38,148 bases of DNA from Mesorhizobium sp. 65-26. Its GTDB lineage: Bacteria > Pseudomonadota > Alphaproteobacteria > Rhizobiales > Rhizobiaceae. The translations under genes and the position numbers were made by a program. The stretch covers positions 1 through 38,148 of the forward strand of contig MKVL01000027.1 of NCBI GenBank assembly GCA_001899205.1, written 5' to 3'. Shown here piece by piece: positions 7,968 to 33,844 of this stretch (its first letter is position 1; each line of letters starts with the position of its first letter). A model generated the notes under the pieces. It was not told the origin of the DNA and did no database searches. It saw only the letters and a list, made by a program, of their open reading frames with translations.

Positions 7968-8002
7968 CACCGGGGCGGCAAAGATATTATCGAAGCCCGG
8001 TG
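7968..8002. terminator. Long-loop inverted repeat between convergent genes
   Basis: CACCGGG and CCCGGTG form a 7-bp stem around a 21-nt loop in the 105 bp between the converging LuxR-type and ornithine cyclodeaminase genes. It lacks a T-run. It is a possible shared terminator, with weak support. Confidence 0.25.
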
Positions 8003-8057
8003 CCTGCTTCGCAGCGAAAGCCGGCAACGCGCCTCGCGGTGCCCCTCCAACGCCCGG

Positions 8058-9152: not shown

Positions 9153-9154
9153 GC

Positions 9155-10087
9155 TCAGAGGCTCCCCGAGTGGCTGCGGGTCGGGCGGTCCATGATGCGG
9201 CGGCCCATCAGGCTGGCGGTGAGGTCGACCATCAGCGTCGCGGTGCGGCCGCGCTCGTCGAGGAATGGGTTCAGCTCGACCAGGTCGAGGCTGGAGACGA
9301 GGCCGCTGTCGGACAGCATTTCCATCACCAGATGCGCCTCGCGGAAGGTGGCGCCGCCGGGAACGGTGGTGCCGACGGCCGGCGCGATCGACGGGTCGAG
9401 GAAATCGACGTCGAGGCTGACATGCAGCAGCCCGTTTTCCTGCTCGACGGCGGCGAGGAAGGCGCGCAGCAGCGGCGCGATGCCATGCTCGTCGATGGCC
9501 CGCATGTCGTGCACGGTGACGCCCGCCTCGCCCAGCGCCCGGCGCTCGGCCGGATCGACGCTGCGCAGGCCGATGGCGCAGATGCGGGCGGGATCGACGG
9601 GGGCCGCCAGGTCGGGGAAATAACCCTGAAAACCGTGGCGTCCGCTGGCATAGGCGAGCGGCACGCCGTGCAGGTTGCCGCTGGCGGTGGTGTCGAGCGT
9701 GTGGAAATCGGGATGGGCATCGAGCCAGAGCACGAAGAGCGGGCGGCCACGCTCGGCGGCCCGACGCGCCACGCCGGACACAGTGCCGGCGGAGATCGAG
9801 TGGTCGCCGCCGAGGAAGATCGGCATGGCATCCCCCGAAGCTTCGTAAGCGGTTTCGGCGATCGCCGTCGTCCAGGCAGCGATTTCCGGCAAGGCCTTCA
9901 GCGCGAGATTGCCATGGACGACAGGGCGGGCGACCGCTTTCCGCACCGCGCCCCAGTCCTCCACCTCGTGGCCGAGATCCGACAGCACGGAGACAAGCCC
10001 GGCGGTGCGCAGGGCGCTCGGCCCCATCTCGCATCCCATCCTGCCCGCGCCGTCCTGTACCGGCGCGCCGACGATCCTGCAGCGCAT
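9155..10087 (-). CDS. Arginase
   Basis: This 310-aa ureohydrolase cleaves L-arginine to L-ornithine and urea. All Mn ligands expected in the family are visible: H96 in GGDHS, D123/H125/D127 in LDAHPD, and D226/D228 in SLDVDFLDP; E271 in LVELNP is also present. The length is normal. It starts at ATG 10087 with an AAGGGCGG ribosome site and is immediately followed by ornithine cyclodeaminase. A divergent Lrp-type gene lies 131 bp away and is likely its activator. Agmatinase is a possible alternative, but the pairing with ornithine cyclodeaminase strongly favours arginase. Confidence 0.92.
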   Translation of the reverse strand: MRCRIVGAPVQDGAGRMGCEMGPSALRTAGLVSVLSDLGHEVEDWGAVRKAVARPVVHGNLALKALPEIAAWTTAIAETAYEASGDAMPIFLGGDHSISAGTVSGVARRAAERGRPLFVLWLDAHPDFHTLDTTASGNLHGVPLAYASGRHGFQGYFPDLAAPVDPARICAIGLRSVDPAERRALGEAGVTVHDMRAIDEHGIAPLLRAFLAAVEQENGLLHVSLDVDFLDPSIAPAVGTTVPGGATFREAHLVMEMLSDSGLVSSLDLVELNPFLDERGRTATLMVDLTASLMGRRIMDRPTRSHSGSL

Positions 10088-10106
10088 GGTCTTTCCCGCC
10101 CTTGCC

Positions 10107-10125
10107 GTTGACGGTGAGAGTCAAC
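10107..10125. promoter_or_regulatory. Inverted repeat upstream of arginase
   Basis: GTTGAC-7 nt-GTCAAC is a perfect 6-bp inverted repeat 20 bp upstream of the arginase start codon, in the divergent region with the Lrp-type gene. It is a candidate regulator site overlapping the arginase promoter. Confidence 0.35.
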
Positions 10126-10179
10126 CATCGCCGGCTGGCAGTTTGAACAGGAAAAATTGGCGTTTCGAAAAGATCAGCC

Positions 10180-10192
10180 TATCATATTGATA
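10180..10192. promoter_or_regulatory. AT-rich inverted repeat, candidate Lrp operator
   Basis: TATCA-TAT-TGATA lies 26 bp upstream of the Lrp-type gene in an AT-rich patch that stands out from the GC-rich surroundings. Lrp/AsnC proteins commonly bind such AT-rich palindromes and control themselves and a divergent target. Confidence 0.45.
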
Positions 10193-10218
10193 AGGTATTT
10201 TGAGCAAAATGGGCAGCC

Positions 10219-10659
10219 ATGGATACACTCGACGAAAGGTTGGTGACGCTTCTCAGGCACGATGCGCGGCGCAGCGTCTCCGACCTCGCGGTCGATCTCG
10301 GCGTCTCGCGCGCCACGGTCAGGGCGCGTATGGAGCGGCTGGAGAAATCCGGCGAGATTATCGGCTACACGGTGGTGCTGCGCGCCGATGCAGTGGACCA
10401 GCGTATACGCGGCGTGATGATGATAGAGATCGAAGGCCACGCCGCTGACCGCGTCATCCGCACGCTCGGTGGCTTCCCCGAGGTTTCCACCATCCACACC
10501 ACCAACGGCCGCTGGGATCTCGTGGTCGAACTCGGCACCGCCTCGCTGACCGACTTCGACGCGGTGCTGCGCCGCATCCGGCTGATCCCCGGCATAACCG
10601 GCAGCGAGACCAGCCTGCTTCTGGCGACGCCCAGGACGACCAAGGCGCGACTGGCGTAG
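10219..10659 (+). CDS. Lrp/AsnC-family regulator of the arginase operon
   Basis: This 146-aa protein has the usual two-part structure. An N-terminal winged helix-turn-helix (residues about 3-50) contains LDERLVTLLRHDARRS, DLAVDLGVSRATVRARM and EKSGEIIGYTV. A C-terminal RAM ligand-binding domain contains STIHTTNGRWDLVVEL. It diverges from arginase-ornithine cyclodeaminase, the arrangement known for arginine-responsive Lrp-type activators in rhizobia and Agrobacterium. It most likely senses arginine or ornithine; that is inference. The ribosome site before the ATG is weak. Confidence 0.88.
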   Translation: MDTLDERLVTLLRHDARRSVSDLAVDLGVSRATVRARMERLEKSGEIIGYTVVLRADAVDQRIRGVMMIEIEGHAADRVIRTLGGFPEVSTIHTTNGRWDLVVELGTASLTDFDAVLRRIRLIPGITGSETSLLLATPRTTKARLA

Positions 10660-10696
10660 CTGCCAGCGTTCCACCGGCGGAAACCGGGCTTGAGGA

Positions 10697-11677
10697 TCAC
10701 CGCTTGGCGGGGATACCGGCGGAGCGGCTCGGATGCCTGAGATGCGTTGGCGTGATGCCGGTCTGCTGGCGGAATACGCGGCTGAAATGCCCGGCATTGC
10801 CGAAGCCGCAGCGATAGGCGATCTCGCCGATCCGCAGGTCGCTTCCTTCGAGCAGCGACTTCGCATAGTGCACCCGAAGCGCCAGATAGGCGGCCATCGG
10901 ACTGATCCCCAGCTCGGTCGCGAAAAGACGTTCGAGCTGCCGCCGTGAGCAATTCAGCCGGTTTGCGATCTCGTTGACCGATACCTTGTCCTGGAGGCTG
11001 CTTTCCATCAGGAGCAAGGCGCGCTTGACCGCGCGGCTCGTGGCCTCGGGAAACAGATCCCCCACCGGCTGCACGTCCCTGATGTTGCGAATGCGATCCA
11101 GCACAAGGATCTTGGCGGCCTTTTCGGCGGCCTTCTGACCGATGAACTGCGACACAAAATAGCCGGCGAGGTCGGCCGCGCCGGTGCCGCCGGCGCAGGT
11201 GGAGCGGCCGCGGTCGACAGAGAACAGGCTGTCGGCATGCGCGTTCACATCGGGAAATTCCGCGCGAAAATCCTTGATGTGGAACCAGCTTACGGCGGCG
11301 CTGTAGCCGTCGAGCAAGCCATAGCGCGCGAGCACGAAGCTTCCCGTGCAGAGCGCGGTTATGGGAATGCCCTTCTCGGCCGCGCGCAAGAGGAAGGCTT
11401 CCTTTTCGGAGCTGAGGCTGCGGTTCGTGTCGAGCAGGCCGCCGACCACGACGACGTTGTCGAAATCCTCGGGATTGCCGATGGCCTTCGTCGGTAGCAG
11501 CTCGACGCCACAGCTCGCCCGGATCGGCAAGCCGCGCTCGCCGACGATCTGCCAGTCGAACTCGACCCTGCGGCTGCGGTCACCCTCATCGCCAGCGAGC
11601 CGCAGCGTATCGATGAAGAGTGAAAGCGGCGACAGGGTGAAATCGCGCACCAGAAGAAACGCAAACTTCCTGGCCAT
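10697..11677 (-). CDS. GlxA-type regulator (DJ-1/PfpI domain plus AraC HTH)
   Basis: This 326-aa transcription factor has an N-terminal DJ-1/PfpI-like domain (about residues 1-190) and a C-terminal AraC/XylS DNA-binding domain. The first carries the nucleophile-elbow-like ALCTGSFVLA and GLLDGY. The second carries VNEIANRLNCSRRQLERLF and GEIAYRCGFGNAGHFSRVFR. I chose ATG 11677; the longer frame begins only with TTG at 11710. Well-known relatives include ArgR of Pseudomonas (arginine), GbdR (glycine betaine) and CdhR (carnitine). Its neighbours are an arginase locus on one side and catabolic cluster A on the other, so its target is undecided. It converges with the Lrp-type gene 37 bp away. Confidence 0.85.
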   Translation of the reverse strand: MARKFAFLLVRDFTLSPLSLFIDTLRLAGDEGDRSRRVEFDWQIVGERGLPIRASCGVELLPTKAIGNPEDFDNVVVVGGLLDTNRSLSSEKEAFLLRAAEKGIPITALCTGSFVLARYGLLDGYSAAVSWFHIKDFRAEFPDVNAHADSLFSVDRGRSTCAGGTGAADLAGYFVSQFIGQKAAEKAAKILVLDRIRNIRDVQPVGDLFPEATSRAVKRALLLMESSLQDKVSVNEIANRLNCSRRQLERLFATELGISPMAAYLALRVHYAKSLLEGSDLRIGEIAYRCGFGNAGHFSRVFRQQTGITPTHLRHPSRSAGIPAKR

Positions 11678-11886
11678 CCGTTTCCCGAACCATCCCTTCG
11701 CATTGGCCAAGGCCCAAGCTGCCTGATCCCTTGGACAATCTCAGAGAAATCAACCGAAAAGGGAACCAGGAAATACGCCTTGCCGGCTCACATCACCGCC
11801 CAGTCGCTGGAAATCAGCGCACGGGATTGATGGCGGGTCGGCCAGCACCGCGCTGCAGTATGCGATCGGGGTGGCGAAGGCTCGGC

Positions 11887-17833: not shown

Positions 17834-19324
17834 TCAGTGGACCGACGCGTACATGATGGTCTCCTCGTCGGCGCCCTGCGGCGAGAACTCCTCGACCACG
17901 CGGCCCTGCCGGAACACCAGGATGCGGTCGGACAGATTGAGCACCTCGGGGAGGTATGAGGAGATGACGATGACGGCGAGGCCATCCTCGGCAAGCTGCT
18001 TGATCAGCGCGTGGATCTCGGCGATCGCGCCGACGTCGACGCCGCGCGTCGGCTCATCGAAGATCACCAGCTTTGGCTTCTGCAGCAGCGATTTGGCGAT
18101 CACCACCTTCTGCTGGTTGCCGCCCGACAGCTCGACGACATGCGTGTCGCCGTTGATCGCCCTGATCTGCAGGGCCTTGCGCCAATGTTCGGCCAGCGGC
18201 ACGATCTCGGAAGGTTTCACGATCAAGCGCGACGACCATTTCGACGCCAGATGGCCGATACGCAGATTGTCGGTGATCGAGAGCTGTTCGAAGAACCCTT
18301 CGACCTTGCGATCCTCCGTGACGTAGACGATGCCGTCGTTCACCGCCGGGCGTGGGACACGGTAGCGCACCGGGCGTCCCTCCAGCCGGATCGTGCCGCC
18401 ATGGAAGAAGTTGCGCTTGAGCACGCCGGCGATGATCTTGGCCGTCTCGGTGCGGCCAGACCCGATCAACCCGAACATGCCGGTGATCTGGCCGGCATAG
18501 ATCGAGAACGAGGTGTTGCGGACGATCTTGCCGAGCGACAGGTTCTCCACGCTCAGGATCTTGGCGCCGCGCCGACGCTGCCCGGCCTTCTGGCCATAGA
18601 GCGTGTCGGTCATCGTGCGGCCGACCATAGAGCGGATGATGCTGTCGCGGTCGAAGTCACGCGACGGACCGGTGACGACATGCAGGCCGTCACGCATGAT
18701 CATGATGCGGTCGGCCAGCATCAGGGCTTCTTCCAGGGCGTGGGAGATGAAGACAATGGCGATCCCCCTCGCCTTCAGCCGCCCGACCAGCGCGAAGAAA
18801 TGCTGCTTCTCCTCGGGCGTCAGCGATGCCGTCGGCTCGTCGAAGATGATGAGCCGGACATTCTTGCGCACCGCGCGCGCGATCTCGACCATCTGCTTCT
18901 TGGCCACGCCGAGCGTCGAAACCAGGGCCGTCGGGTCGACGTTGAAGTTGAGCGACTGCAGGAATTGCTGCGAGGCGATCGAAACGCCCCTGAGTCGGTT
19001 GAACGTCTTCTCGTCGCCGAGGAACAGGTTCTGACCGACCGTCATGGAGGGCACCAGGCTGGTCTCCTGGAACACCATGGCGATGCCGAGATCCAGGGCG
19101 GCTTCCGGATTCGCCATCCGCACCGGCTTGCCCTCGAGCAGCACTTCGCCCTTGGTGGGTTCCACCACGCCAGCCATGATCTTTGTCAGCGTCGACTTGC
19201 CGGCGCCGTTTTCACCGAGGATCGCCAGCACCTCTCCCGCGTGGACCTCCACGCTGATGTCCGAAACCGCCGGCACGCCGCGATAGGCCTTGGTGACGCT
19301 CTTCAGTTCGAGCAACGCCGTCAT
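17834..19324 (-). CDS. CUT2-type ABC transporter ATP-binding protein, cluster A
   Basis: This 496-aa protein has two fused nucleotide-binding domains, like RbsA. Domain 1 has an intact Walker A (GENGAGKST, residues 37-45) and Walker B (LIIFDEPTASLT), but a changed signature (STLGVAKKQMVEIARA). Domain 2 has the degenerate Walker A of the family (GLIGSGRTETAK) with a canonical signature LSGGNQQKVVIAK and Walker B LVIFDEPTRGVDVGA. It powers import through the two permeases of the cluster. The start ATG 19324 overlaps the stop of the propeller gene as TGATG, implying coupled translation. It is clearly paralogous to 26976-28478, though diverged. Confidence 0.92.
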   Translation of the reverse strand: MTALLELKSVTKAYRGVPAVSDISVEVHAGEVLAILGENGAGKSTLTKIMAGVVEPTKGEVLLEGKPVRMANPEAALDLGIAMVFQETSLVPSMTVGQNLFLGDEKTFNRLRGVSIASQQFLQSLNFNVDPTALVSTLGVAKKQMVEIARAVRKNVRLIIFDEPTASLTPEEKQHFFALVGRLKARGIAIVFISHALEEALMLADRIMIMRDGLHVVTGPSRDFDRDSIIRSMVGRTMTDTLYGQKAGQRRRGAKILSVENLSLGKIVRNTSFSIYAGQITGMFGLIGSGRTETAKIIAGVLKRNFFHGGTIRLEGRPVRYRVPRPAVNDGIVYVTEDRKVEGFFEQLSITDNLRIGHLASKWSSRLIVKPSEIVPLAEHWRKALQIRAINGDTHVVELSGGNQQKVVIAKSLLQKPKLVIFDEPTRGVDVGAIAEIHALIKQLAEDGLAVIVISSYLPEVLNLSDRILVFRQGRVVEEFSPQGADEETIMYASVH

Positions 19325-20415
19325 CACGCAGCCTCCCCGACTTGATCCGGTTCGCAGGCGACGAGACATTCCGCGCCCTTGCTTGCCGCATGGATCCGGC
19401 CGCCGAACTCGACGCAGGACGTGACGCCGTGGATCGTGCCGTCGGCGCGGCTGTGATAGCTGGCAAGCGGCTGCATGGCCGCATCCAGTCGCGCGACCAG
19501 CCCATAGGACTGGCTTGGCGCCCACGGCTTCAATATGCCCAGATGCTTGATGCCGCCGCCCTGCAACGGCTCACGAAACGAACGCCCGCTGGCGTGGCGC
19601 GGAGCCATCCAGTAGTCGGGATCGATGGTTTCGATCATGTGCCGCCGTGCTGCATCCTCACGCAGCATGAACTCGACCATCTGGGTGCGCGGCGCAAAGG
19701 CGGCGAGCCAGAAGCCGCCGCCAGAAGCGGGTGAAAGCCGTGAGGGATAGGCGGGCAGGTCGGCGAGCAGCGGCCGCGCGCGGCCACCCTCGCCGATCTC
19801 CACGATGCGATGGCGCCAGCTCTCGCTGCAGGCGAGGCGCCCGTCGGCAAGCCGGGCCAGGCCATAGGGAAAGGCAAGGTCCTTCGCCAGGCGCCTGACC
19901 TCGCCGCCGCGCTGGAATTGCCAGAGGCTGCCCGTCGAGCCCTTCTGCATCAGGTCGCGCTTCCAGTCGCTCGCGACAATTTGGGCGGAGCCGTTGGCGA
20001 CGAGCAGCCGGTCGCCCTCGACCAGGAGCGCCATGATCGAATGCGCTCCCGCCTCCGACGGAAGCGCAAGCCGGGTCGGCACGCCCGCCGCGTCGATCCA
20101 TTCGATCGTGCCGTCGGCCAGCGCGACAGCCAGGGACTGCCCGTCCGAGGCGAGTGCTGTGACCGCATGGGCATGATGGCCAACGCTCCGTGGAGCGCCG
20201 CCGCCAGCGTCGAAGGCCAGCACCTGCGTCCCGCTGCTCGCCAGCAGCCTCCCGCCATGAACACACAGGCTGTCGGGCTTGTCGATGGCGGCAAGGCGCT
20301 CAGCACCTTCGAGCAAGGTGTTCGGCAGCAACGGCCCGTCCATGGGAGGGACCGTGACCGCATGCTCGCCGGCGCCGGTGAAGGCGTCCCACCAGCCGCG
20401 CAGGGTCTTCATCAT
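19324..20415 (-). CDS. Stand-alone SMP-30/strictosidine-synthase-like beta-propeller protein, cluster A
   Basis: This 363-aa protein has no signal peptide and no membrane segment. Repeating blade motifs (LACSESWRHRIVEI, SGGGFWLAAF) place it near the strictosidine-synthase-like/SMP-30 six-bladed propellers. Compared by eye with the fused propeller encoded just upstream, the expected metal ligands are missing. GPED becomes DKPD near residue 48, PNG becomes PYG (Y184) and LPDNI becomes YPSRL (S225). It may be a non-catalytic partner, sensor or scaffold. Its ATG (20415) overlaps the fusion-gene stop as ATGA, and its stop overlaps the ATPase start as TGATG, so three gene products are translationally linked. 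I do not know a described function for this family in ABC operons. Confidence 0.75.
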   Translation of the reverse strand: MMKTLRGWWDAFTGAGEHAVTVPPMDGPLLPNTLLEGAERLAAIDKPDSLCVHGGRLLASSGTQVLAFDAGGGAPRSVGHHAHAVTALASDGQSLAVALADGTIEWIDAAGVPTRLALPSEAGAHSIMALLVEGDRLLVANGSAQIVASDWKRDLMQKGSTGSLWQFQRGGEVRRLAKDLAFPYGLARLADGRLACSESWRHRIVEIGEGGRARPLLADLPAYPSRLSPASGGGFWLAAFAPRTQMVEFMLREDAARRHMIETIDPDYWMAPRHASGRSFREPLQGGGIKHLGILKPWAPSQSYGLVARLDAAMQPLASYHSRADGTIHGVTSCVEFGGRIHAASKGAECLVACEPDQVGEAA

Positions 20416-22535
20416 TTGCGCGACCCCCAATAGCTGTCGTTACTGGTCCAGTTGGGATCCGCGTCGGGAAGGCGAAGACGACCTATCCTGTTGTTGTGGA
20501 CACCGCCGATATAGAGCCAGCCCTTGTGCTCGCGCATCGAGGTGGTCTGCGGATGGTTGACACCCCCGGCATCCCAGTAGGATTCCAGCACGGTGCCATT
20601 GTCATCGAAGCGGATGATGCAGCCGGCATTAATGTTCGGATACATCCACTCGTCATGCGCGACGCGCATCGCCATGCGGCGGCGGAAGCCCGGCATGCGC
20701 AGCGCCATGTCGACCACCGGCGCGCGCATCCCCATCAGCGCGCACCAATAGGTGCCGTCGGAGGCGCGGTTTATGTTGTCGGGCAGGCCTGGCAGGTCGG
20801 GAATGACGACCTCGAGCTTGCCCTTGCGCGGCCCGTCGAACCAGTAGCGGCTGATCCGCGCCGCCCAGGTCTCGGCGAAGAAGAACGACTGGCCGTCATT
20901 GGCGATGCAGACGCCGTTCGGGAAGACCAGGTTCTGCAGCACGGTGCGCGTCTTGCCAGAGCGCGGATCGTAGCAGACGATGCGCCCGTTGCCGCGCGTC
21001 TCGACGGAATCGGTCGCCCACTCGGCGATGTCGTAGCGGATCGTCGCCTCGCTGAAGAAGATGCGGCCGTCCGGCGCGATGTCGAGGTCGTCGGCGAGAC
21101 GCATGCGCGAGTCGTCGATGATCGACCAGAGCGAGCGGTTCGTCTCGTCGGTCTGGCGCACGACCTCACCGTCGGGCAGCACCTTGTAGAGCCCCATGCC
21201 GCCGACGCAGACATTGAGATGGTCGTTGCGGTCGAAGGCGAAACCCAGCGTCTGCCCGCCGATATGGGCGAACAGTTCCCGTTTCTTGTAGTCGGGAGCA
21301 AGGAAGCGGATCACATCGCCATGACGGCTGCCCGTGTAGAGGTTGTCGTCGCGGTCGAAGATGACGTCCTCGGGCCCGTCGAGCTCGCCAAGCCCGATCA
21401 GTTCGACATCCTTCAGGCGGTCGTTCTGGGCGTAGGGCGAGCCCGAATCCGGATCGGTCGGCGGGCAGGTCGGCATCGAGAAATAGGCCGGCGAGACATA
21501 GACGCTCGATATGACCTTGTGGCGGTTCTTCAGCCACTTCACGTCGATGGCGACGCCGATCAGCAACGCGACCGCGAGCACCAGCGTGCTGGCGCCGCTC
21601 TGCAATCCGAGGCTGATGAGGCTGTTGGTGAGCGTCAGCACGATCACCGTGCCCATCAATGCCTTGGCGACCGAGCCGCGACCGCCGCCGAGGCTGTTAC
21701 CGCCGAGCACCACGGCGGTGAGCACCAGCACCTCCATGCCGAGGCCGGCATCGGAGGCGGCACTGCCGATGCGCGCCGCGTAGAAGAAGCTGCCAAGCCC
21801 CGTCAGCGTCGACGACAGGACATAGGTGAGGCAGACGGTGCGCCGCACCTTGATGCCGGCGTTGTGCGCCGAGCGCCGGGAGCCGCCGACGGCAAGCAGG
21901 TGCCAGCCGAAGCGGGAGCGGGTGAGCATGACATGCAGGATGATGGCGACGACGAGCACGACCAGGCAGCTCACCGGCATCCCGTAGACGTCGCCATAGG
22001 CGAGATAGTCCCACAGCGGCGAGGAGGCGCCTCCGGTGGCCAGGCGGGTGCCGTAGGTGAGCACCAGCAGGTCGGCAGCGGAGCGGAAGATGATGAGCGT
22101 GACCAGCGTGGTGAGGAACGCGCGAAGCCGGAGGAAGCCGATCAGCAGGCCGTTGACGAGACCGATCGCGGCGCAGGCGGCCAGAACCACCGGCAAGGTG
22201 ACGAATACCGGCCAGCCCAGGAGGTTGATCAGCGCAAGCGTCAGGAAATTGCCGATCGCAAAGACCGAACCGACCGAAAGATCGATACCGCCGGCCAGCA
22301 TGACGATCGCCATGCCCATCGCCACGAACCCGACCTCCGCCAGTTGGCGGGTGGAATCGCTGAGGGTGAAGGGCTCGAAGAAGCCCGGCACGATGCTGCC
22401 GAAGACAGCGATCGAGCCGACCAGCATGAAGAACGGGATGACGTTGTCGATCCAGTTCTTCGAGAGCAGTTCACCCAACACGTGGTCGGGCACGTAGCGA
22501 TAACGCCAACGCGTCAATGTGTCTTGGACAGACAT
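20412..22535 (-). CDS. ABC transporter permease fused to C-terminal strictosidine-synthase-like/SMP-30 beta-propeller, cluster A
   Basis: The protein is 707 aa. Residues 1 to about 335 are a complete RbsC-type permease with many hydrophobic helices, GIDLSVGS (83-90) and a GGNSLGGGRG loop (278-287). After the last helix comes basic KWLKNRHK (333-340), which by the positive-inside rule puts what follows in the cytoplasm. Residues about 380-707 form a propeller with blade motifs and candidate metal ligands E389 (GPED), N540 (FPNG) and D586 (LPDNI), as in SMP-30/lactonase-type enzymes. No stop or frameshift lies at the junction, so the fusion is real. The likely role is to import a compound and hydrolyse its lactone or ester bond on entry. 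The ATG at 22535 has GAGG upstream. A paralog at 29544-31718 has the same architecture. Confidence 0.88.
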   Translation of the reverse strand: MSVQDTLTRWRYRYVPDHVLGELLSKNWIDNVIPFFMLVGSIAVFGSIVPGFFEPFTLSDSTRQLAEVGFVAMGMAIVMLAGGIDLSVGSVFAIGNFLTLALINLLGWPVFVTLPVVLAACAAIGLVNGLLIGFLRLRAFLTTLVTLIIFRSAADLLVLTYGTRLATGGASSPLWDYLAYGDVYGMPVSCLVVLVVAIILHVMLTRSRFGWHLLAVGGSRRSAHNAGIKVRRTVCLTYVLSSTLTGLGSFFYAARIGSAASDAGLGMEVLVLTAVVLGGNSLGGGRGSVAKALMGTVIVLTLTNSLISLGLQSGASTLVLAVALLIGVAIDVKWLKNRHKVISSVYVSPAYFSMPTCPPTDPDSGSPYAQNDRLKDVELIGLGELDGPEDVIFDRDDNLYTGSRHGDVIRFLAPDYKKRELFAHIGGQTLGFAFDRNDHLNVCVGGMGLYKVLPDGEVVRQTDETNRSLWSIIDDSRMRLADDLDIAPDGRIFFSEATIRYDIAEWATDSVETRGNGRIVCYDPRSGKTRTVLQNLVFPNGVCIANDGQSFFFAETWAARISRYWFDGPRKGKLEVVIPDLPGLPDNINRASDGTYWCALMGMRAPVVDMALRMPGFRRRMAMRVAHDEWMYPNINAGCIIRFDDNGTVLESYWDAGGVNHPQTTSMREHKGWLYIGGVHNNRIGRLRLPDADPNWTSNDSYWGSRK

Positions 22536-22599: not shown

Positions 22600-23616
22600 T
22601 CACTGAACGAGGTCCGGGATCTGTTCCATCTGCCAGCAGGAATTGGGCTTCAGGTTCGCCTTGGTGACGACCTTCAGCGGCGTGATGAGCGCGAACGGAT
22701 TGACCTTGGCTTCGCCATCCTGCTGGAGCAGGAAGGCGATGGCCGCGTTAAGGTCCCTGCCCTGGCGCGCGACGTCGTAGATCACCACCTCGTCGAAAGT
22801 CCCGCTTTCAACCATGTCGCAATCGGCCTGCTTGCGTCCGCCGCCGGAGGACGACAGGAAGACCTTGCCCGTAAGCCCGGCCTCCCGGATCGCGGCGGCC
22901 GTGCCCACGTCCATATTGTCCCAGAGTCCGACGATGCCGCACATGTCCGGGTTCTGCTTCAGCGCGGTCGCGGCGATGCCCTGGGCCTTGGTGGCGTCCC
23001 ACTCGCTGGACTGGTCGGATACGACCTGGATTTCTGGATGCTTGGCAAAGACGTCCTTGACCGCCTGGACCGTGATGAAATTGGCCGGGTCGGTAACGCG
23101 GCCCTGCATGATGGCGACCTTGCCTGATTTGCCCTTGCAGGCCTCGACCACCGAGTTCGCCTGGTGTTCGCCGATCTTGTACCAGTCGACGCCGACGAAG
23201 GCCTCCGTGGTGGTCTCGGACTTCAGGTTGACCTGCAGCACCTTGATCCCCTGGCCCTGCACGCGCTTCAGCAGCCTGGCATAGGCATTGCGGTCCGGAT
23301 TGTGCACCACGATGATGTCGGGCTTCTGCGAAATGAGCTGGGTGATCTGCTGGGCGCCGGCATCCGTGCTCCAGTTCGGGTCGCGGATGATGAGCTCGTA
23401 GCCCATGGCGTCGGCCTGTACCTTCATGGCCGCGGCCCAGCCCTGGGTGAGGTCGAAGCCCATCGACAGCGGCACGAAGGCGACCTTCTTGCCCTTCATG
23501 GCGGTGTAGGCGCGTTGATTGACCCCGTCGTCATACGGTTCGGCCCTTGCGACCGAACCGCCGGCTAGCGCCGCAACCGCAACGGCGGCGGCAAGCATTT
23601 TCCTGATGCCCTTCAT
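22600..23616 (-). CDS. Periplasmic sugar-type ABC substrate-binding protein, cluster A
   Basis: This 338-aa protein of the RbsB/periplasmic-binding-protein 4 type begins with a clear Sec signal peptide (MKGIRKMLAAAV to VARA, cleavage near residue 25). The mature part has the two-lobed fold pattern: GKKVAFVPLSMG, ISQKPDIIVVHNPD, GQGIKVLQVNL, AIMQGR and MCGIVGLWDNMDVG. The start ATG 23616 has GGAGGAGAGG upstream. It lies between the first permease gene and the strong stem-loop before the fused permease. Its ligand sets the substrate of the pathway but cannot be deduced; CUT2 systems are not limited to sugars. Confidence 0.9.
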   Translation of the reverse strand: MKGIRKMLAAAVAVAALAGGSVARAEPYDDGVNQRAYTAMKGKKVAFVPLSMGFDLTQGWAAAMKVQADAMGYELIIRDPNWSTDAGAQQITQLISQKPDIIVVHNPDRNAYARLLKRVQGQGIKVLQVNLKSETTTEAFVGVDWYKIGEHQANSVVEACKGKSGKVAIMQGRVTDPANFITVQAVKDVFAKHPEIQVVSDQSSEWDATKAQGIAATALKQNPDMCGIVGLWDNMDVGTAAAIREAGLTGKVFLSSSGGGRKQADCDMVESGTFDEVVIYDVARQGRDLNAAIAFLLQQDGEAKVNPFALITPLKVVTKANLKPNSCWQMEQIPDLVQ

Positions 23617-23663: not shown

Positions 23664-24665
23664 TCAGATGTCCCCCTGCTGCGACGTCTGTTCGTCGCGC
23701 GGGTTCAGCAGCGTGTCGGCCACGATCGCCGCCAGCAGGATTATCCCCTTGATGATGTTCTGCATCAGGAAGGGGATGTTCATAATCGTCATGCCGTTGA
23801 GCAGGATGCCGATCAGAAGCGTTCCCACCACCACGTTGCGGATGCCGCCCTTGCCGCCGCCGAGGCCGATGCCGCCCAGCACCACCACCAGAATGACGTC
23901 GTAGACCAGCGTCGAGTTGACGATGCGGGTGTTCATGCTGTCGACATTGGCGGTCATGACCAGGCCGGCGCAGAAAGCGATGAGCGCGGCGATCACATAT
24001 TGCAGGACGATCAGCGGCCTGACCGGCACGCCTGATATGCGGGCGGCCGCCGGATTGTCGCCGAGCGCGTAGACGAAGCGGCCGGCTTTGGCATAGCTCA
24101 GGAAGAGGTAGGCGACGACGCATACGACGGCGAAGACGATGACCGGCGCCGGAATGCCAGCGAGCGTGCCGCTGCCGAAGCCGCGCAGCCAATCCTGCCC
24201 GGGCGGCAGATTGACGATGTCGACACTGATCATGGCGAAGCGGCCGAGACCATAGACGAGACCGCCCATCGCCAGCGTCGTGAAGACGGCCGGTATCTCG
24301 ACATAGGCCACCAGAAAACCATTGGCGGCGCCGACCAGCACCACGAAGGCGAGGGCCAGCGCGAAAGCCGTGGGCGGCGCCACGCCCTCGCCCAGCATCA
24401 GGATCATCCAGGCAACCGAGACGGCCATCGTGGCGACGATGGAAAGGTCGATGCCCCGCCCGAGAATCGAAAGCGCCATGCCGACGGAGAGGATGCCGAG
24501 GATCGAGACGTTGCGCACAAGCGCCAACATGTTGTCGACGGTCGCAAAGCCGCGCAAGATAAGCGAGAACAGCGCGAAGATGACGACGGCCAGGGCGAAG
24601 ACGATCCATTCCTGGGTGATCTTCACCGACACCTTGGACGCGCCGGGCGCGGTCACGGTTTCCAT
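23664..24665 (-). CDS. ABC transporter permease (RbsC-type, not fused), cluster A
   Basis: This 333-aa integral membrane permease has RGIDLSIVATMAVS, a membrane-spanning run throughout, GDNPAAARISGVPVRPL before the last helices and VVLGGIGLGGGKGG. It pairs with the fused permease, so the transporter is probably a heterodimer, unlike the single-permease ribose system. Two starts are possible: ATG 24677 and ATG 24665. I prefer 24665 because the shared operator element occupies 24675-24705, which would overlap the earlier start codon, and because the -10 box lies at 24698-24703. First gene of the main cluster A transcript. Confidence 0.88.
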   Translation of the reverse strand: METVTAPGASKVSVKITQEWIVFALAVVIFALFSLILRGFATVDNMLALVRNVSILGILSVGMALSILGRGIDLSIVATMAVSVAWMILMLGEGVAPPTAFALALAFVVLVGAANGFLVAYVEIPAVFTTLAMGGLVYGLGRFAMISVDIVNLPPGQDWLRGFGSGTLAGIPAPVIVFAVVCVVAYLFLSYAKAGRFVYALGDNPAAARISGVPVRPLIVLQYVIAALIAFCAGLVMTANVDSMNTRIVNSTLVYDVILVVVLGGIGLGGGKGGIRNVVVGTLLIGILLNGMTIMNIPFLMQNIIKGIILLAAIVADTLLNPRDEQTSQQGDI

Positions 24666-24674
24666 TCCCCATTC

Positions 24675-24705
24675 CATTCTTATATCAGATTGATATTCTG
24701 ATATC
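24675..24705 (-). promoter_or_regulatory. Candidate IclR operator at the head of cluster A (copy 2 of shared element)
   Basis: This is a gapless match to 16322-16352. The core is GATATTCTGATATC (24692-24705), and a 7-bp inverted repeat TATCAGA/TCTGATA spans 24683-24703. It overlaps the -10 box, as expected for a repressor site. Confidence 0.68.
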
Positions 24706-26975: not shown

Positions 26976-28478
26976 TCAGTGGATGGCCGCGAACATGATC
27001 TTCTCCTCGGTCGCCGCGCTTGCATCGAACTGTTCGACGATGCGGCCGCCGCGCGCCACCAGGATACGGTCGGAGACGCTGAGAACTTCGGGCAGGTAAG
27101 AGGAGATGACCAGCACCGCGACGCCTTCGTCGGCGAGCTTGCCGATCAACTTGTGAATCTCCTCGATCGCCCCGACGTCAACGCCGCGCGTGGGTTCGTC
27201 GAAGATCACCAGCTTCGGCTTCTGCACCATGGACTTGGCGATCACCACCTTCTGCTGGTTGCCACCCGAAAGCTCGATGACACGCGCATCGCGGTTGATG
27301 GCGGCAATCTGTAGCTTGTCGCTCCAGTTCCTAGCCAGCTCCCGTTCCCGCTTCCTGGAGACAAGCAGCGGTTGCCGCTGCCCGGCCAGATAGCCGAGAT
27401 AGATGTTCTCGCTTATCGACATGGTCTCAAAGAAACCGTCCATCTTGCGGTCCTCGGTGACGTAGACGATGCCGTCCCGCACGCCCTGCGTGGGAACGCG
27501 GTAGCGCACCGGCCTGTTGTCGAGCTTTATCGTGCCGCCGCGCAGCCGGCGCCTTTTCATCGCCCCGGCGATGACCTTGGCGATCTCGGTGCGACCGGAG
27601 CCGACGAGGCCCGCGATCGTGGTCACCTGGCCGGCAAACACCTTGAACGTCATGTTGCGCACCATCGTGCCCGACACGACATTGTCGACCGACAGGACGA
27701 GTTCGCCGCGGTCGCGGATGCGCCTCTCGCTTGCCCGGGTCCTAGCCACTTCGCGGCCGACCATCATACGCACGATCTCGTCGCGCGTGGTTTCGCTCGC
27801 CCGCACCGTGCGGACCTTGCGCCCGTCGCGCAGCACCGTGATGCGGTCGGCGATCGACAGCGCCTCCTCCAGCGCGTGCGAGATATAGATGACCGCCACG
27901 CCGCGGCGGCGCAGGTCCTCGATCAGCAGGAAAAGGTGCTGTATCTCCTCCGGCGTCAGGCTGGCGGACGGTTCGTCGAAGATGATCAGCCGGGCGCCGA
28001 AATAGATGGCCCGCGTGATCTCGACCATCTGTCGCTTGGCGGTGCCCAGGGTCGACACGAGGGCCTTCGGGTCGACGGAGAAATTCATCGACTGCAAGAG
28101 ATGCTGGGCGCGGATGTTGAGGCTCTTGTGCGTCGAGAACATCGGCTCCCGGCCGAGATGGATGTTCTGCGCCGCCGTCATGGTCGGGACGAGGCTGGTC
28201 TCCTGGTAGACCATGGCGATGCCGAGGTTGAGCGCATCCTGCGGACTGTCGAAGGCACGCTTCTTGCCCTCGTAGATGAGTTCACCGGCGCTGAGGGTGG
28301 CCGCGCCGCAGATGACCTTGCACAGCGTCGACTTGCCGGCGCCATTCTCGCCCACCAGCGCATGCACCTCGCCCGGCGCGACATCGAAATCGATGTCGCT
28401 GATCGCGGCCGTGCCCTGGTAGAGTTTGGTCGCGCCCCTGAGGCGCAATGCCGGTTCGACCATCGCGGTGTCGTTCAT
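26976..28478 (-). CDS. CUT2-type ABC transporter ATP-binding protein, cluster B
   Basis: This 500-aa double-domain ATPase is like the cluster A protein. Domain 1 has GENGAGKST, an altered signature STLGTAKRQMVEITRA and LIIFDEPSASLT. Domain 2 has GLVGSGRTEIAK, LSGGNQQKVVIAK and LVIFDEPTRGVDVGA. ATG 28478 overlaps the stop of the propeller gene as TGATG, exactly as in cluster A. It is followed after 132 bp by the IclR gene. The in-frame upstream extension is a shadow of the propeller gene and was excluded. Confidence 0.92.
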   Translation of the reverse strand: MNDTAMVEPALRLRGATKLYQGTAAISDIDFDVAPGEVHALVGENGAGKSTLCKVICGAATLSAGELIYEGKKRAFDSPQDALNLGIAMVYQETSLVPTMTAAQNIHLGREPMFSTHKSLNIRAQHLLQSMNFSVDPKALVSTLGTAKRQMVEITRAIYFGARLIIFDEPSASLTPEEIQHLFLLIEDLRRRGVAVIYISHALEEALSIADRITVLRDGRKVRTVRASETTRDEIVRMMVGREVARTRASERRIRDRGELVLSVDNVVSGTMVRNMTFKVFAGQVTTIAGLVGSGRTEIAKVIAGAMKRRRLRGGTIKLDNRPVRYRVPTQGVRDGIVYVTEDRKMDGFFETMSISENIYLGYLAGQRQPLLVSRKRERELARNWSDKLQIAAINRDARVIELSGGNQQKVVIAKSMVQKPKLVIFDEPTRGVDVGAIEEIHKLIGKLADEGVAVLVISSYLPEVLSVSDRILVARGGRIVEQFDASAATEEKIMFAAIH

Positions 28479-29536
28479 CACGCACTTGCCTCCACTTCGA
28501 GCAGTTTTCCCGCCCCCTTGCTGACCGCGAGAAGCCTGCCGCCATGGTCGAGCGCCGAGGTGATGCCGTGGTGGCTGCCGCCGACCCGGCTGTGGAAGGA
28601 TTCCAGCGGCACGAGGCTGTCCGACAGGCGGCAGACGAGGCCGTAGGAGCGCGGCGGCGACCACGCCTTCCTGATCCCCAGCTTGACGATGGCGCCGCCC
28701 TGCAGCGGCTCGAGATACGAGCTTCCGGACGACAGTGCAGGTCGCACCCAGTAGAGCGGATCGATGGTCTCGATCATTTCCGTGCGGAAGGCGGGTTCTG
28801 ACAGGACAAAGTCGACCAGCAGCGTCCGTAGCGCGAAGACCGCGAGCCAGAAGCCGCCTCCCGAGGCGGGTTCGAGCCGGCCCGGATAGCCGGCGAGGTT
28901 TTCCAGCACAGTCTCGGCCGCTCCCGTCGCGGGATCGATGCGCAAGACGCGGTGCGCCCATGCTTCCGACACGAGAAGCTTGCCGTCGGCGGCAAGCGCG
29001 ACGCCGTTGGCATAGCGCATGCCGCGCCTGATGAAACGAGGCTGCGCTCCGGACGGCCAGACACCCACGCTACCCGTCTCGCCAAGGCGCATCAGGTCCT
29101 GGTACCACTCGTCGGCGCGGCAGGCTTGCGAGCCCTGCGTGAAGTAGACCGAGCCTGACGCGTCGCAGGCAAGCGCCGTAATGCAGTTCGACGGCTCGGC
29201 CGCACGGGCGATCTCGGCGCCGCGCGCGTCAAGCCTGACCAGCTCATGCCCCTCGATGGCGGCGACCACCACCCCATCCGGCCCGGCGGCCAGCGCGCTG
29301 ACCACGCCGGAGAAATCGGCAACCGTGACCAGCCGTTCGCCGTCCAGCCATGACAGCCGGTTGCCGGCGCTCACGTAGAGGCGATCGCCGCAGACGCAGA
29401 TGCAGTCCATGTCCTGCAAGGCAGCGATCGTCTTCGCCGCCTCGAGGCGGTCGTTGGCGCTCCAAGGCCCATCGAGCATCGGCGGCGGCAGGCTCTCCGC
29501 CTCGGGGCGGAACCATTTGCTCAGAAACTGAAACAT
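28478..29536 (-). CDS. Stand-alone SMP-30/strictosidine-synthase-like beta-propeller protein, cluster B
   Basis: This 352-aa protein is paralogous to the protein at 19324-20415. Shared blade motifs include LLVSEAWAHRVLRI and SGGGFWLAVF, both contain an MIETIDPxYW segment, and both end with a KGAxxL motif. No signal peptide or membrane helix is visible. Putative metal-ligand positions are only partly kept: N177 in YANG is present, while the Glu (QDMD, about residue 43) and Asp (GYPGRL, G219) are lost. It is probably cytoplasmic and may pair with the propeller fused to the permease. The ATG at 29536 has GAGG upstream and lies 7 nt after the fusion-gene stop. Its stop overlaps the ATPase start. 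Confidence 0.75.
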   Translation of the reverse strand: MFQFLSKWFRPEAESLPPPMLDGPWSANDRLEAAKTIAALQDMDCICVCGDRLYVSAGNRLSWLDGERLVTVADFSGVVSALAAGPDGVVVAAIEGHELVRLDARGAEIARAAEPSNCITALACDASGSVYFTQGSQACRADEWYQDLMRLGETGSVGVWPSGAQPRFIRRGMRYANGVALAADGKLLVSEAWAHRVLRIDPATGAAETVLENLAGYPGRLEPASGGGFWLAVFALRTLLVDFVLSEPAFRTEMIETIDPLYWVRPALSSGSSYLEPLQGGAIVKLGIRKAWSPPRSYGLVCRLSDSLVPLESFHSRVGGSHHGITSALDHGGRLLAVSKGAGKLLEVEASA

Positions 29537-29543: not shown

Positions 29544-31718
29544 TCACTCGGCTGCCAGGATCTGAGGGGTCGGCGCGGCCTTGTCCTCGGGGCGCCGCCA
29601 GTAGCTTTTCAGGCTCGTCCAGCTCTTGTCCGCCCAAGGCAGCGGAATGCGCCCAATGCGGTTGTTTTCCAAGCCGCCGAGATAGAGGTAGCCCTTGTGC
29701 TCGCGCATCGAAGTGACCTGCGGATGCGACACGCCCTCGGCGTCCCACATCGATTCCAGGATCTGGCCGTTCTCGTCGAAGCGCAGCACGCAACCATGGT
29801 TGGAACCCTGGAAAAGCCACTCGTCCTTCGGCAGGTTCTTCACCATGCGCAACCGGAAACCGGGATGCTTGAGCGACAGATCGTTGGCCGGTGAGCGCAT
29901 GGCGCAGAGCGCCAGCCAATAGGTGCCGTCCGAGGCGCGATTGATGTTGTCGGGCTGGCCGGGAAGGTTGTCGAGCAGGATCTCGGCCTGCCCCGCCTTT
30001 GGTCCCTTGATCCAGAGCCGCTTGACGCGGCACGCCCAGGTCTCGGCCACGAACACCGACTGTCCGTCATGGGCGACGCAGATGCCGTTGGCGAAATGCA
30101 GGCCGCCCAGCACCGTCGTTGTCTTGCCGGTCTTCGGATCATAGCAGCAGACGCGACCGCTCGCCCGCCCTTCGAGGCTGTCGAACATCCATTCATGCAT
30201 CTCGAACCGGTAGGTCGCCTCGCTGAAATAGACCTTGCCGTCCGGCGCGATGTCGAGGTCGTCGGTCAGTCGCAGCCGCGAATTGTCGATGAGCGTGAAC
30301 AGGCTGCGATTGGTGCGGTCGGCAAGACGGCTTGTCGTTCCGTCCGGAGCCACCATGTAGAGCCCCATACCGGCAACGCAGACATAGATGTTCTCCTCGG
30401 CATCCATTGCCAGGCCCAGCGGACGGCCGCCAATGCGTGCGAAGATCTCGACCTCGTCATAGGGCGGCGCCGAACGTACGATCCACCCCTGGCGGGTACC
30501 GGCATAGATCCAGTCCCGGCTGTCGATGACGATGTCCTCGGGTCCCTCGATCCTGTCGATGCAGAGCGCCTCGGCCGAGCGCAGGACGTCGTTCTGCGAC
30601 AGCGGGCTGGCGGTTCCGGGAGACGTATCGGGCAGCGGTCCGAGCTCGAGCACGACCGGATTGACGTAGGTCTTCTCGATCGCCTTGTGGCGGTTCTTGG
30701 CCCATTTTACGTCGAGCCCCACCGCCAGCAGCAGGATGAAGCCAAGCAGGCTGGCGACGAAGGGGGCCGACACGCCGAGACTGGTCAGGTTGTTCACCAG
30801 AAGGAACACCACGCCGGTGCCGATCATCATCGAGCCGACGGTGCCGCGCCCGCCCGACAGGCTGACGCCGCCGGTCACGACCGCAGCAAGCGCGGTGATT
30901 TCCAGGCCGACGCCCGTCGTCGAGCCGATGCTGTTCAGCCGCGAGGCATAGAAGATCGCGCCGACGGCGGCGATCGCGCCGGCCACGATGTAGGTATAGA
31001 AAAGCACCCAGCTATAGCTGATGCCGGCATGTCGCGCCGCCTTGCGGCTGGCGCCCACCGCGACCACGCGCCAGCCGAATTTGGAGCGGCTGAGCAGGAC
31101 ATGGCCGACCAGTCCCGTGACCAGGAGCAACACCGCATTGACCGGCATGCCGAACAGGAAGCCGGAGCCGGCCCAGTCCCATGTCTCGTTGAACACGAAG
31201 GCGCTGGACAGGTCGGCGCTGTAGTGCAGCGACAGCATGTTGAACAGCGCCCGGTAGATGATGAGCGTCACCAGGGTGGTCAGGAACGGCCGCGTCTTCA
31301 TGAAGCCGATGAAGAAGCCGTTGACGCCGCCGAGCGCGGCCCCGACCGCGATGCCCGCCGCGATCGAGAGCCAGAGCGGCAACTGGTAGATGTTGAGGCA
31401 TACCAGGACCGTGAGATCGACCAGCGCGAAGATGGAGCCGACGCTGAGGTCGACGCCGCCCGAGATCAGCGTCAGGCCGACGGCGAGCGCGACGAAGCCC
31501 AGCTCGGCGAACTGCCGCAGCAGCGTGCTGATGTTGGCGAAGGAGAAGTAGTTGGGAACCACCGCGCCGAAATAGAGAACCAGAGCGACGAGCGCCGTGA
31601 ATGGGATGATGGGCTCCATCCAGGGTTTTGACATAAGCTCCGAGAATATTTTCGTCGGCATGGCATTCCACCAGAGCCTTCGAACAAAGGGAGCTTTCCT
31701 GTATTGCATAACCATCAT
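29544..31718 (-). CDS. ABC transporter permease fused to C-terminal strictosidine-synthase-like/SMP-30 beta-propeller, cluster B
   Basis: This 724-aa protein has the same architecture as the cluster A fusion: an RbsC-type permease with GGVDLSVGS and TGGVSLSGGRG, a basic KWAKNRHK linker after the last helix, then a propeller. The propeller has the putative metal ligands in GPED, FANG and QPDNI and many identical blades (DDLDIAPDG, YFSEAT, NRASDGTYW, HPQVTSMREHKG). It extends about 15 residues further at the C-terminus than cluster A. Several close starts exist (31718, 31715, 31709 and 31661). Alignment with the cluster A N-terminus favours one of the first three. It follows the binding-protein gene by 28 bp, without the stem-loop seen in cluster A. 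Confidence 0.87.
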   Translation of the reverse strand: MMVMQYRKAPFVRRLWWNAMPTKIFSELMSKPWMEPIIPFTALVALVLYFGAVVPNYFSFANISTLLRQFAELGFVALAVGLTLISGGVDLSVGSIFALVDLTVLVCLNIYQLPLWLSIAAGIAVGAALGGVNGFFIGFMKTRPFLTTLVTLIIYRALFNMLSLHYSADLSSAFVFNETWDWAGSGFLFGMPVNAVLLLVTGLVGHVLLSRSKFGWRVVAVGASRKAARHAGISYSWVLFYTYIVAGAIAAVGAIFYASRLNSIGSTTGVGLEITALAAVVTGGVSLSGGRGTVGSMMIGTGVVFLLVNNLTSLGVSAPFVASLLGFILLLAVGLDVKWAKNRHKAIEKTYVNPVVLELGPLPDTSPGTASPLSQNDVLRSAEALCIDRIEGPEDIVIDSRDWIYAGTRQGWIVRSAPPYDEVEIFARIGGRPLGLAMDAEENIYVCVAGMGLYMVAPDGTTSRLADRTNRSLFTLIDNSRLRLTDDLDIAPDGKVYFSEATYRFEMHEWMFDSLEGRASGRVCCYDPKTGKTTTVLGGLHFANGICVAHDGQSVFVAETWACRVKRLWIKGPKAGQAEILLDNLPGQPDNINRASDGTYWLALCAMRSPANDLSLKHPGFRLRMVKNLPKDEWLFQGSNHGCVLRFDENGQILESMWDAEGVSHPQVTSMREHKGYLYLGGLENNRIGRIPLPWADKSWTSLKSYWRRPEDKAAPTPQILAAE

Positions 31719-31746: not shown

Positions 31747-32778
31747 TTATTGCTGATTAACCTTGTAGCACATGTCGTCGTTTATATTGTCCTTGGCCAT
31801 GCGCAGAAGCGGGGAATAGACGGCCACGGTCGCCTTCGAGGTATCGATGCCGGCGGCGCGCTGCTGCAGCAGGGTCAGCGCCATGTTGACGATCTGGTAA
31901 CCCTGCTGTGTGCCCTGATAGCTCCAGTCGGAGGTGTACCAGCCCTCCTTGATGTACTGGCAGCCAACCGGGTCACCGCCGCCGCTGGTGATGATCTTGA
32001 CGTCGCCGGGCTGCTTGCCGGCTTCCTTCAAGGCCTGGATGACGCCGACGCCGGGCACTTCCCAGTAGCTGACGACGGCGCACAGGTCGGGGTTCTGCAG
32101 GATGGCCGAGGCGGAGGCGTCGTAGAAGGCCTTGGTGTCCCAGCCGCCCTGCGACTGCTCGGCAACGACCTTGATGTCGGGATTCTTCTCCAGCACCTGG
32201 TTGATGCCCTTGGTGATGTCGATGGAGATCGCCGAGGTCAGTTCGCCCTTCATGATGGCGATCTTCTTGGAGGCGGCATTGGCGCAGGTGTTGACGACGT
32301 CGTCCGCCATCCGCGCGCCCATGGTGACGGAGTCGGCGCCGACATAGGCGTCGCTCTTGAAGTTGGAGGCCATGTTGACCTGCATGACCGGGATACCGGC
32401 CGCCTGCGCCTGCTGGATCTGCTTGGCCAGGAGCTGCACGTTCGGATTGTGCAGGATGAGAAGGTCGGGCTTCTCATTGATGAGCGTGGCGACGATCTGC
32501 GACTGGCGGTCGGCGTTGTAGTCGGGGTCACGCACGACGAAATCGATGCCGCGCTCGCCCAGTTCCTGCTTCATCACGCGTGTCCATTCGGCCGGCAGCG
32601 AATGCGCCATGCTGACGGGCACCCAGGCGACGCGCTTGCCCTTCAGCAGGCCGTCGACCTTGGCCGTAAACTGCGCCTCGTTCATCCATTGCTGGTTGTC
32701 CTGCGCCGTCGCGACGGCGGCCATGCCGAGCAGGGCCGCGCCCGCGAGAAGCGTCAGATGTCTTGCACCGTATTTCAT
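31747..32778 (-). CDS. Periplasmic sugar-type ABC substrate-binding protein, cluster B
   Basis: This 343-aa RbsB-like protein has a signal peptide (MKYGARHLTLLAG to VATAQ, cleavage near residue 25). The mature protein shows GKRVAWVPVSMAHS, INEKPDLLILHNPN, AAGIPVMQVNMAS, DLCAVVSYWEVPG and TSGGGDP. It is paralogous to the cluster A protein but less similar to it than the permeases or ATPases look to each other, suggesting a different ligand. ATG 32778 has GGGAGG upstream. The last codons and the gap after the gene are strikingly AT-rich. It precedes the permease-propeller fusion gene by 28 bp. Confidence 0.9.
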   Translation of the reverse strand: MKYGARHLTLLAGAALLGMAAVATAQDNQQWMNEAQFTAKVDGLLKGKRVAWVPVSMAHSLPAEWTRVMKQELGERGIDFVVRDPDYNADRQSQIVATLINEKPDLLILHNPNVQLLAKQIQQAQAAGIPVMQVNMASNFKSDAYVGADSVTMGARMADDVVNTCANAASKKIAIMKGELTSAISIDITKGINQVLEKNPDIKVVAEQSQGGWDTKAFYDASASAILQNPDLCAVVSYWEVPGVGVIQALKEAGKQPGDVKIITSGGGDPVGCQYIKEGWYTSDWSYQGTQQGYQIVNMALTLLQQRAAGIDTSKATVAVYSPLLRMAKDNINDDMCYKVNQQ

Positions 32779-33817: not shown

Positions 33818-33844
33818 GGTCTCCTCCCCTTCCGTGGCCATCTC

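Follow-up and report, generated by a model that had tools for sequence, protein, structure and literature searches.

On the minus strand of Mesorhizobium sp. 65-26 contig MKVL01000027.1 (assembly GCA_001899205.1; positions 1 to 38,148, the whole stretch of 38,148 nucleotides analyzed here and hereafter called the window), a single open frame joins an RbsC-type permease to a propeller of the N6P superfamily (strictosidine-synthase-like/SMP-30/paraoxonase). In our judgment the balance tips slightly toward a CUT2-type ATP-binding cassette (ABC) importer that bears a metal-dependent hydrolase, covalently joined and cytoplasmic, and that is obligately accompanied by a metal-free second propeller, a reading drawn from sequence. 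The fusion was already noted in a first-pass annotation of this DNA; the metal-free propeller encoded directly after it (here designated PROP2), the six copies of the fusion in the same genome, and the fixed five-gene cassette are new.

The fusion gene extends from an ATG at 22535 to a stop at 20412-20414 (last codon, 20415-20417), and its frame is free of internal stops, as expected from the uninterrupted 707-codon gene of the first-pass annotation. Its parts are as follows.

20412 to 22535, minus strand: permease-propeller fusion gene, 707 amino acids, coordinates including the stop (open reading frame [ORF], Pfam, alignment of 51 fusions)
21501 to 22535, minus strand: fusion residues 1-345, comprising an N-terminal extension, the RbsC-type permease (∼10 transmembrane helices, 27-331), and the basic end KWLKNRHK (Pfam, AlphaFold2 helices, charge count)
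21450 to 21542, minus strand: fusion residues 332-362, linker (regional identity comparison; W334, K336, and N337 in 51/51 fusions)
20415 to 21449, minus strand: fusion residues 363-707, six-bladed propeller of the strictosidine-synthase-like (SSL)/SMP-30 (N6P) kind (Pfam, sequence alignments, AlphaFold2, Foldseek)

A domain search and a structure prediction, both suggested in the first-pass annotation, bore out its description of an RbsC-type permease followed by a strictosidine-synthase-like/SMP-30 propeller. Four Pfam domains scored above their curated cutoffs: BPD_transp_2 at residues 62-328 (E, 3e-35), which identifies the N-terminal half as an RbsC-type permease, and, in the C-terminal half, SSL_N at 367-411 (E, 5.9e-16), SGL/SMP-30 (gluconolactonase) at 414-602 (E, 1.1e-13), and Str_synth at 482-568 (E, 1.7e-18). 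AlphaFold2, supplied with a 19-row alignment of the window and related loci only, modeled a helical permease, in which we ourselves count the ∼10 helices, and an all-β C-terminal half (mean predicted local distance difference test [pLDDT] 77.8; predicted template modeling score [pTM] 0.56). Foldseek matched this C-terminal half to six-bladed propellers, from which its blade number is taken; TGW6 and strictosidine synthases ranked best, followed by DFPase, paraoxonase (PON1), and the RPA3624 lactonase. The permease half matched no solved structure by sequence at E 0.01.

Conservation was compared in two alignments: A1, with 23 fusions (17 of the 21 loci from a one-genome-per-species scan plus the six fusions of the Mesorhizobium genome itself; loci L024, L025, L026, and L029 omitted), and a larger one with 51 distinct full-length fusions (one of 52 matching ORFs, shorter than 680 amino acids, omitted). 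Mean pairwise identity across the 23 fusions was 64.6% for the propeller versus 53.0% for the permease, and the juxtamembrane segment 332-349 was, at 67.9%, the most conserved of four regions compared. The N-terminal extension (residues 1-26; 22458-22535) precedes the first helix; K26, and W28 just past the extension, are present in 51/51 fusions, and the partner permease of the cassette seems to lack the extension.

The fusion is real and not an artifact, because six copies in its own genome and relatives in other genomes keep a single frame. Besides the 20412-22535 gene, the Mesorhizobium genome encodes five full-length fusions at 48-60% identity to it, one in the window (29544-31718) and four on other contigs. 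In the species scan, 17 of the 21 loci encode a fusion of full length, alignable from end to end; of the other four, L024 and L026 run off their contigs, L025 has its fusion in two frames, and L029 has a distant permease only. Together with the 51 distinct fusions, these copies and loci rule out in practice a stop or frameshift near 21400-21520, which the first-pass annotation had named as grounds for discarding its interpretation. At L025 (Pseudophaeobacter leonis, 7881-9961) the fusion is split over two frames, through a sequencing error or because the gene is broken.

The fusion is widespread but sporadic. Counting its own genome, it was found in 24 of 151 genomes of a family sample (a few rows being contig-end fragments), in 5 of 240 and 7 of 289 genomes in two draws from the class (the second from rows above 550 bits), and in 11 of 398 genomes of a phylum sample (rows above 1000 bits); these searches scored few candidates per genome, at most seven at E 1e-20 in the 289-genome search. 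Named carriers in the species scan include Mesorhizobium, Sneathiella, Seohaeicola, Variovorax, and Alcanivorax. Plasmids of Rhizobium, Shinella, Sulfitobacter, Salipiger, Paracoccus, Celeribacter, Pantoea, and Paraburkholderia also carry it (16 records, 15 of them covering ≥80% of the query), and it forms a single coding sequence in all six annotated plasmid regions examined among these 16 records. With at most seven candidates scored per genome at E 1e-20, no unfused member of the same propeller clade was found among the 289 class genomes: all 14 matches above 550 bits sit in frames of 712-745 amino acids, and the next-nearest relatives are stand-alone SSL proteins at ∼178-244 bits.

The residues proposed to hold a metal are listed below.

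21369 to 21371, minus strand: E389, putative metal ligand, aligned to TGW6 Glu59 (51/51 fusions)
21090 to 21092, minus strand: residue 482, putative metal ligand, aligned to TGW6 Asn167 (D, as here, in 45 and N in 6 of 51 fusions)
20916 to 20918, minus strand: N540, putative metal ligand, aligned to TGW6 Asn226 (51/51 fusions)
20775 to 20780, minus strand: D586-N587, putative metal ligand pair, with N587 aligned to TGW6 Asn272 (51/51 fusions)

Thus, the Glu/Asn/Asp set singled out in the first-pass annotation is invariant at E389, N540, D586, and N587 and varies between D and N at residue 482; at the level of sequence positions it matches the four conserved metal ligands of the N6P hydrolases. 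D482, N540, and N587 fall inside the significant stretch of the TGW6 alignment (the TGW6 numbering uses an offset of 28 derived from sequence alignment with 8kg3), and four stand-alone SSL relatives have E, D, N, and D at the metal-site positions. In the TGW6 report, the authors regard Glu59, Asn167, Asn226, and Asn272 as partly conserved calcium-chelating residues of this indole-3-acetic acid (IAA)-glucose (acyl-glucose) hydrolase and note a single acidic residue at the site (PMC10958001); the fusion site has at least two (E389 and D586, plus D482 in most). A superfamily review states that most SSL proteins appear to retain four metal ligands, making hydrolysis the more likely activity (PMC4215206).

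The fused propeller is very probably not the condensing enzyme that strictosidine synthase is, because the position of the catalytic Glu is Thr and because strictosidine synthase has Gly at the positions of N540 and D586 (and Asn at that of N587). The catalytic residue of STR1, Glu309, aligns with fusion T665, a Thr in 51/51 fusions, in a weak end stretch (8.6 bits); on these grounds we rejected strictosidine-synthase (Pictet-Spengler) chemistry as a candidate.

Several features predict that the propeller lies in the cytoplasm, as the first-pass annotation had proposed from the basic KNRHK after the last helix, and together they make a strong case, again read from sequence. With loops assigned by us to either side on the AlphaFold2 helix limits, the 23 fusions have on average 15.4 Lys and Arg residues in predicted inside loops versus 0.8 in outside loops; the inside mean is 6.4 once both termini are excluded, and the inside loop at 81-87 has none. 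No additional hydrophobic helix lies between the final permease helix and the propeller. At L069, a locus in a genome of the phylum sample, the permease encoded by an 850-codon frame (4436-6985) shares 43% identity with the permease half of the second window fusion (29544-31718) and runs C-terminally into a tandem ABC ATPase; the frame adjoins a related permease and binding protein, and BLAST against the proteins of the window revealed no propeller in this 12-kb region. Because an ABC ATPase works in the cytoplasm and L069 carries one there, the C-terminal end of the permease should be cytoplasmic.

The fusion is encoded in a five-gene cassette in the order permease, binding protein, fusion, PROP2, and tandem ATPase. 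The other four genes of the first cassette are these.

23664 to 24677, minus strand: partner permease without propeller (BPD_transp_2; Pfam)
22600 to 23565, minus strand: periplasmic substrate-binding protein (Peripla_BP_4; Pfam)
19324 to 20415, minus strand: PROP2, stand-alone second propeller of 363 amino acids, metal site not kept (ORF, AlphaFold2, Foldseek, alignment)
17834 to 19324, minus strand: CUT2-type tandem ABC ATPase (family match; the listed ORF extends to 19525)

As in other CUT2-type importers, a tandem-domain ATPase and a Peripla_BP_4 binding protein are encoded in one operon. The order is kept at 20 of 24 loci (20 in other genomes and 4 in this one), L025 with its fusion in two frames among them; the remaining four (L010, L019, L024, and L026) are truncated where their contigs end, and the genes that they retain follow this order. 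Both cassettes of the window have it too. All five genes are present in five of the six annotated plasmid regions, and the sixth leaves the start of its record after PROP2.

PROP2 accompanies the fusion without exception in our samples: the two share exactly the same genomes (24 of 151 in the family and 7 of 289 in the class), and neither was found without the other in these two samples. In the family sample, PROP2 lies directly downstream of 38 of 39 fusion rows, the matched stretches being -2 to 65 bases apart (two of 40 PROP2-search rows, being the fusions' own propellers, were omitted); the 39th row is a contig-end fragment lacking the C-terminal half. The start codon of PROP2 may overlap the fusion stop by 4 bases in the window, as it may at 9 of the 16 loci where its start was placed (L011-L016, L020, L023, and L028); other starts are possible throughout. 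Pfam left PROP2 of the first cassette unmatched, and SGL and Str_synth matched that of the second only below threshold. AlphaFold2 nevertheless modeled PROP2 as a propeller (mean pLDDT 83.7; pTM 0.83), which Foldseek matched to paraoxonase, strictosidine synthase, and TGW6. In the 10 of 18 aligned PROP2 rows examined, the metal-site positions hold D at the first, T/M/V at the second, N/Y/A/R at the third, and S/G/A at the fourth, so that PROP2 does not have the ligand set of N6P hydrolases. By eye, it has no evident signal peptide or anchor. A tree of the propellers, built without an outgroup, places 23 fused propellers (support, 99/96), 18 PROP2 sequences (100/100), and 8 stand-alone relatives (100/98) in one group each.

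On the reading we favor, the fusion would be one of two membrane subunits of a CUT2-type (ribose/autoinducer-2 [AI-2]-like) importer. On the outside, the binding protein would capture a small ligand, and the tandem ATPase would drive its uptake through a channel formed by the fusion and the partner permease. The fused propeller, positioned at the inner end of this channel and with a divalent metal held by E389, D/N482, N540, and D586/N587, would cleave the ligand on arrival at an ester, acyl-sugar, or lactone bond. The acid (with or without a sugar) freed inside could then feed the acyl-coenzyme A (CoA) or aldehyde-oxidizing enzymes often encoded nearby. PROP2, probably cotranslated with the fusion, would most likely dock on the fused propeller as a noncatalytic cap or as a specificity or regulatory subunit. 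Our confidence that the fused propeller is a hydrolase, as its residue pattern suggests, is moderate; it is weak for a coupling of hydrolysis to transport with trapping of the product, weak for PROP2 as a partner, and weak for an ester, acyl-sugar, or lactone as the substrate class. "Lactonase" is merely one option, because the closest solved relative, TGW6, is an acyl-glucose hydrolase without calcium found. A more elaborate version is less likely than not: a five-part vectorial hydrolysis machine, in which the importer channel empties into the attached metal-dependent propeller hydrolase, with an obligate, metal-free pseudoenzyme propeller as its cap, and in which a ligand cut on entry could not leave, so that uptake would be pulled forward.

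Several observations weigh against an importer with an attached cytoplasmic hydrolase. In the AlphaFold2 model, pLDDT falls below 50 at the linker (332-353) and in propeller stretches 464-478, 500-515, and 621-635. The stretch that aligns E389 with TGW6 Glu59 is not significant alone (0.9 bits) and is absent from the profile alignment. The site of TGW6 is itself partial, and calcium was not found in it (PMC10958001). All eight stand-alone SSL relatives examined among those found start with a hydrophobic stretch (anchor or signal, by eye), which suggests an extracytoplasmic propeller in these proteins; a cytoplasmic hydrolase in the fusion would therefore mean a change of side. Finally, no single substrate can be inferred, because the adjoining pathways vary between loci.

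Alternatively, the fused propeller could be a cytoplasmic regulatory or sensing domain that gates the transporter on binding the substrate or a metabolite further down the pathway (trans-inhibition), and PROP2 would belong to the same switch. The conservation of linker 332-349, which tops the four compared regions, the strict co-occurrence in our samples of a propeller without the metal pattern, and the constancy of the cassette while nearby pathways vary would all suit a switch. We consider it unlikely, however, since four invariant putative ligands (51/51) and a fifth position restricted to D or N are what is expected of a metal-dependent active site, and since PROP2, which has the same fold, lost the pattern (10 of 18 aligned rows examined). 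Likewise improbable is a true hydrolase that is merely tethered, acting on a cytoplasmic substrate, where the fusion would secure coexpression and transport would not be coupled. The low-confidence AlphaFold2 linker would agree with a loose tether, but the fused rows form one tree group (99/96), no unfused member of that clade appeared in the 289-genome search described above, in which all 14 strong matches were full fusion frames, and mean identity is higher in the juxtamembrane linker than in the permease or the propeller. To a periplasmic propeller that processes the ligand ahead of uptake we give very little credence: the N termini of the eight stand-alone relatives favor it, whereas the positive-inside count (15.4 versus 0.8), the lack of an extra helix between permease and propeller, the ATPase borne by the L069 relative at the same permease end, and the absence from PROP2 of an evident signal peptide or anchor all speak against it. 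That two genes have been read as one through an error of assembly or annotation is of negligible probability: the two-frame region at L025 might be cited for it, but six copies in one genome and 51 distinct full-length fusions rule out an assembly artifact, and the annotated plasmid regions (6/6 examined) show a single coding sequence.

Compared with known CUT2 (ribose/xylose/AI-2-type) importers, the cassette is alike in the permease half, partner permease, binding protein, and tandem ATPase and unlike in that one permease subunit terminates in a ∼345-amino-acid propeller and that an extra propeller gene lies between the gene of that subunit and the ATPase gene. The NCBIfam equivalog cutoffs for ribose, allose, arabinose, galactose, and AI-2 permeases were not reached, and the binding-protein family alone leaves the ligand unfixed. 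SSL proteins such as rice TGW6 (8kg3) share SSL_N and Str_synth domains, the six-bladed fold, and metal-site positions with the fusion, which differs in being joined to a permease and predicted to be cytoplasmic, as well as in the number of acidic site residues given above. Strictosidine synthase STR1 (2fp8) resembles the fused propeller in fold and sequence, unlike at the Glu309 position. SMP-30/gluconolactonase, DFPase, paraoxonase, and the RPA3624 lactonase are less similar than SSL/TGW6 (SGL match; Foldseek E, ∼5e-10 to 3e-9) and have a like metal-site logic; judged by their titles, the solved entries include no permease fusions.

The first-pass annotation knew of no described example, and we found no description of a permease-SMP-30/SSL propeller fusion in the titles and opening lines of abstracts of the open-access literature, a scope that leaves out most subscription journals and all preprints. 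In Deinococcus radiodurans, a propeller lactonase is likewise joined to another protein, but the partner is reported to be a Cu/Zn superoxide dismutase and not a transporter (PMC12362111). Here, the importer class and the enzyme superfamily are each known, but they are joined in a conserved and seemingly undescribed way, and the obligate second propeller beside the fusion is unexpected.

In the usual view, ABC importers deliver their ligand to the cytoplasm without altering it. An importer with an enzyme attached at its exit would show import and the first catabolic step built as one unit, suggesting that a cell may cut a nutrient during its passage through the membrane, and the cassette would offer a tractable system for substrate channeling across a membrane. 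If true, vectorial hydrolysis would be a hydrolytic counterpart of group translocation, and an extracytoplasmic enzyme family would have moved to the inner side of a permease. That an intact propeller is so strictly paired with a metal-free one raises a further question, about pseudoenzyme partners. There is also a matter of annotation: 10 of the 16 plasmid records label the fusion "SMP-30/gluconolactonase/LRE family protein," which conceals the permease half; "ABC transporter permease" and RbsC are also in use for these sequences.

The second cassette of the window comprises the following genes.

32813 to 33841, minus strand: partner permease (family match)
31747 to 32778, minus strand: substrate-binding protein (family match)
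29544 to 31718, minus strand: second fusion, 724 amino acids, 48% identical to the first (sequence comparison)
28478 to 29536, minus strand: PROP2, 352 amino acids (sequence comparison)
26976 to 28478, minus strand: ABC ATPase (family match; the listed ORF extends to 28961)

Both cassettes are part of tandem paralogous blocks spanning 11887-37754, with pairwise identities of 33-63% and a partly different gene order; IclR, aldehyde dehydrogenase, nitronate-monooxygenase-like, CoA transferase, ATPase, PROP2, fusion, binding protein, and permease genes are each present twice. Genes downstream of the first cassette encode a class III CoA transferase, an enoyl-CoA hydratase, an aldehyde dehydrogenase, and a flavoprotein resembling nitronate monooxygenase; the region between the two cassettes includes a gene for an acyl-CoA dehydrogenase. 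Relatives of the CoA transferase, acyl-CoA dehydrogenase, enoyl-CoA hydratase, and aldehyde dehydrogenase recur as BLAST neighbors elsewhere. Among 20 hand-picked neighbor ORFs at other loci, 13 had a Pfam match (five acyl-CoA-ligase-like and one each thiolase-, ChsH2-, and HMG-CoA-reductase-like among them) and 7 had none. A Pantoea cassette stands amid sugar-acid/lactone genes, with a D-arabinono-1,4-lactone oxidase ∼5 kb off, and a Celeribacter cassette is near a ring-hydroxylating dioxygenase. The CoA-related neighbors would suit release of an acid that is then CoA activated, and the ligand probably differs between cassettes.

Elsewhere in the window, HyuA/HyuB hydantoinase/acetone-carboxylase-like genes are followed by an acetone-carboxylase gamma-type gene (2196-7059), with two short-chain dehydrogenase/reductase genes adjoining. 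At 8058-11710, genes of the ornithine cyclodeaminase and arginase families are adjacent, and upstream of them lies a gene for an AraC-type regulator with a DJ-1/PfpI domain.

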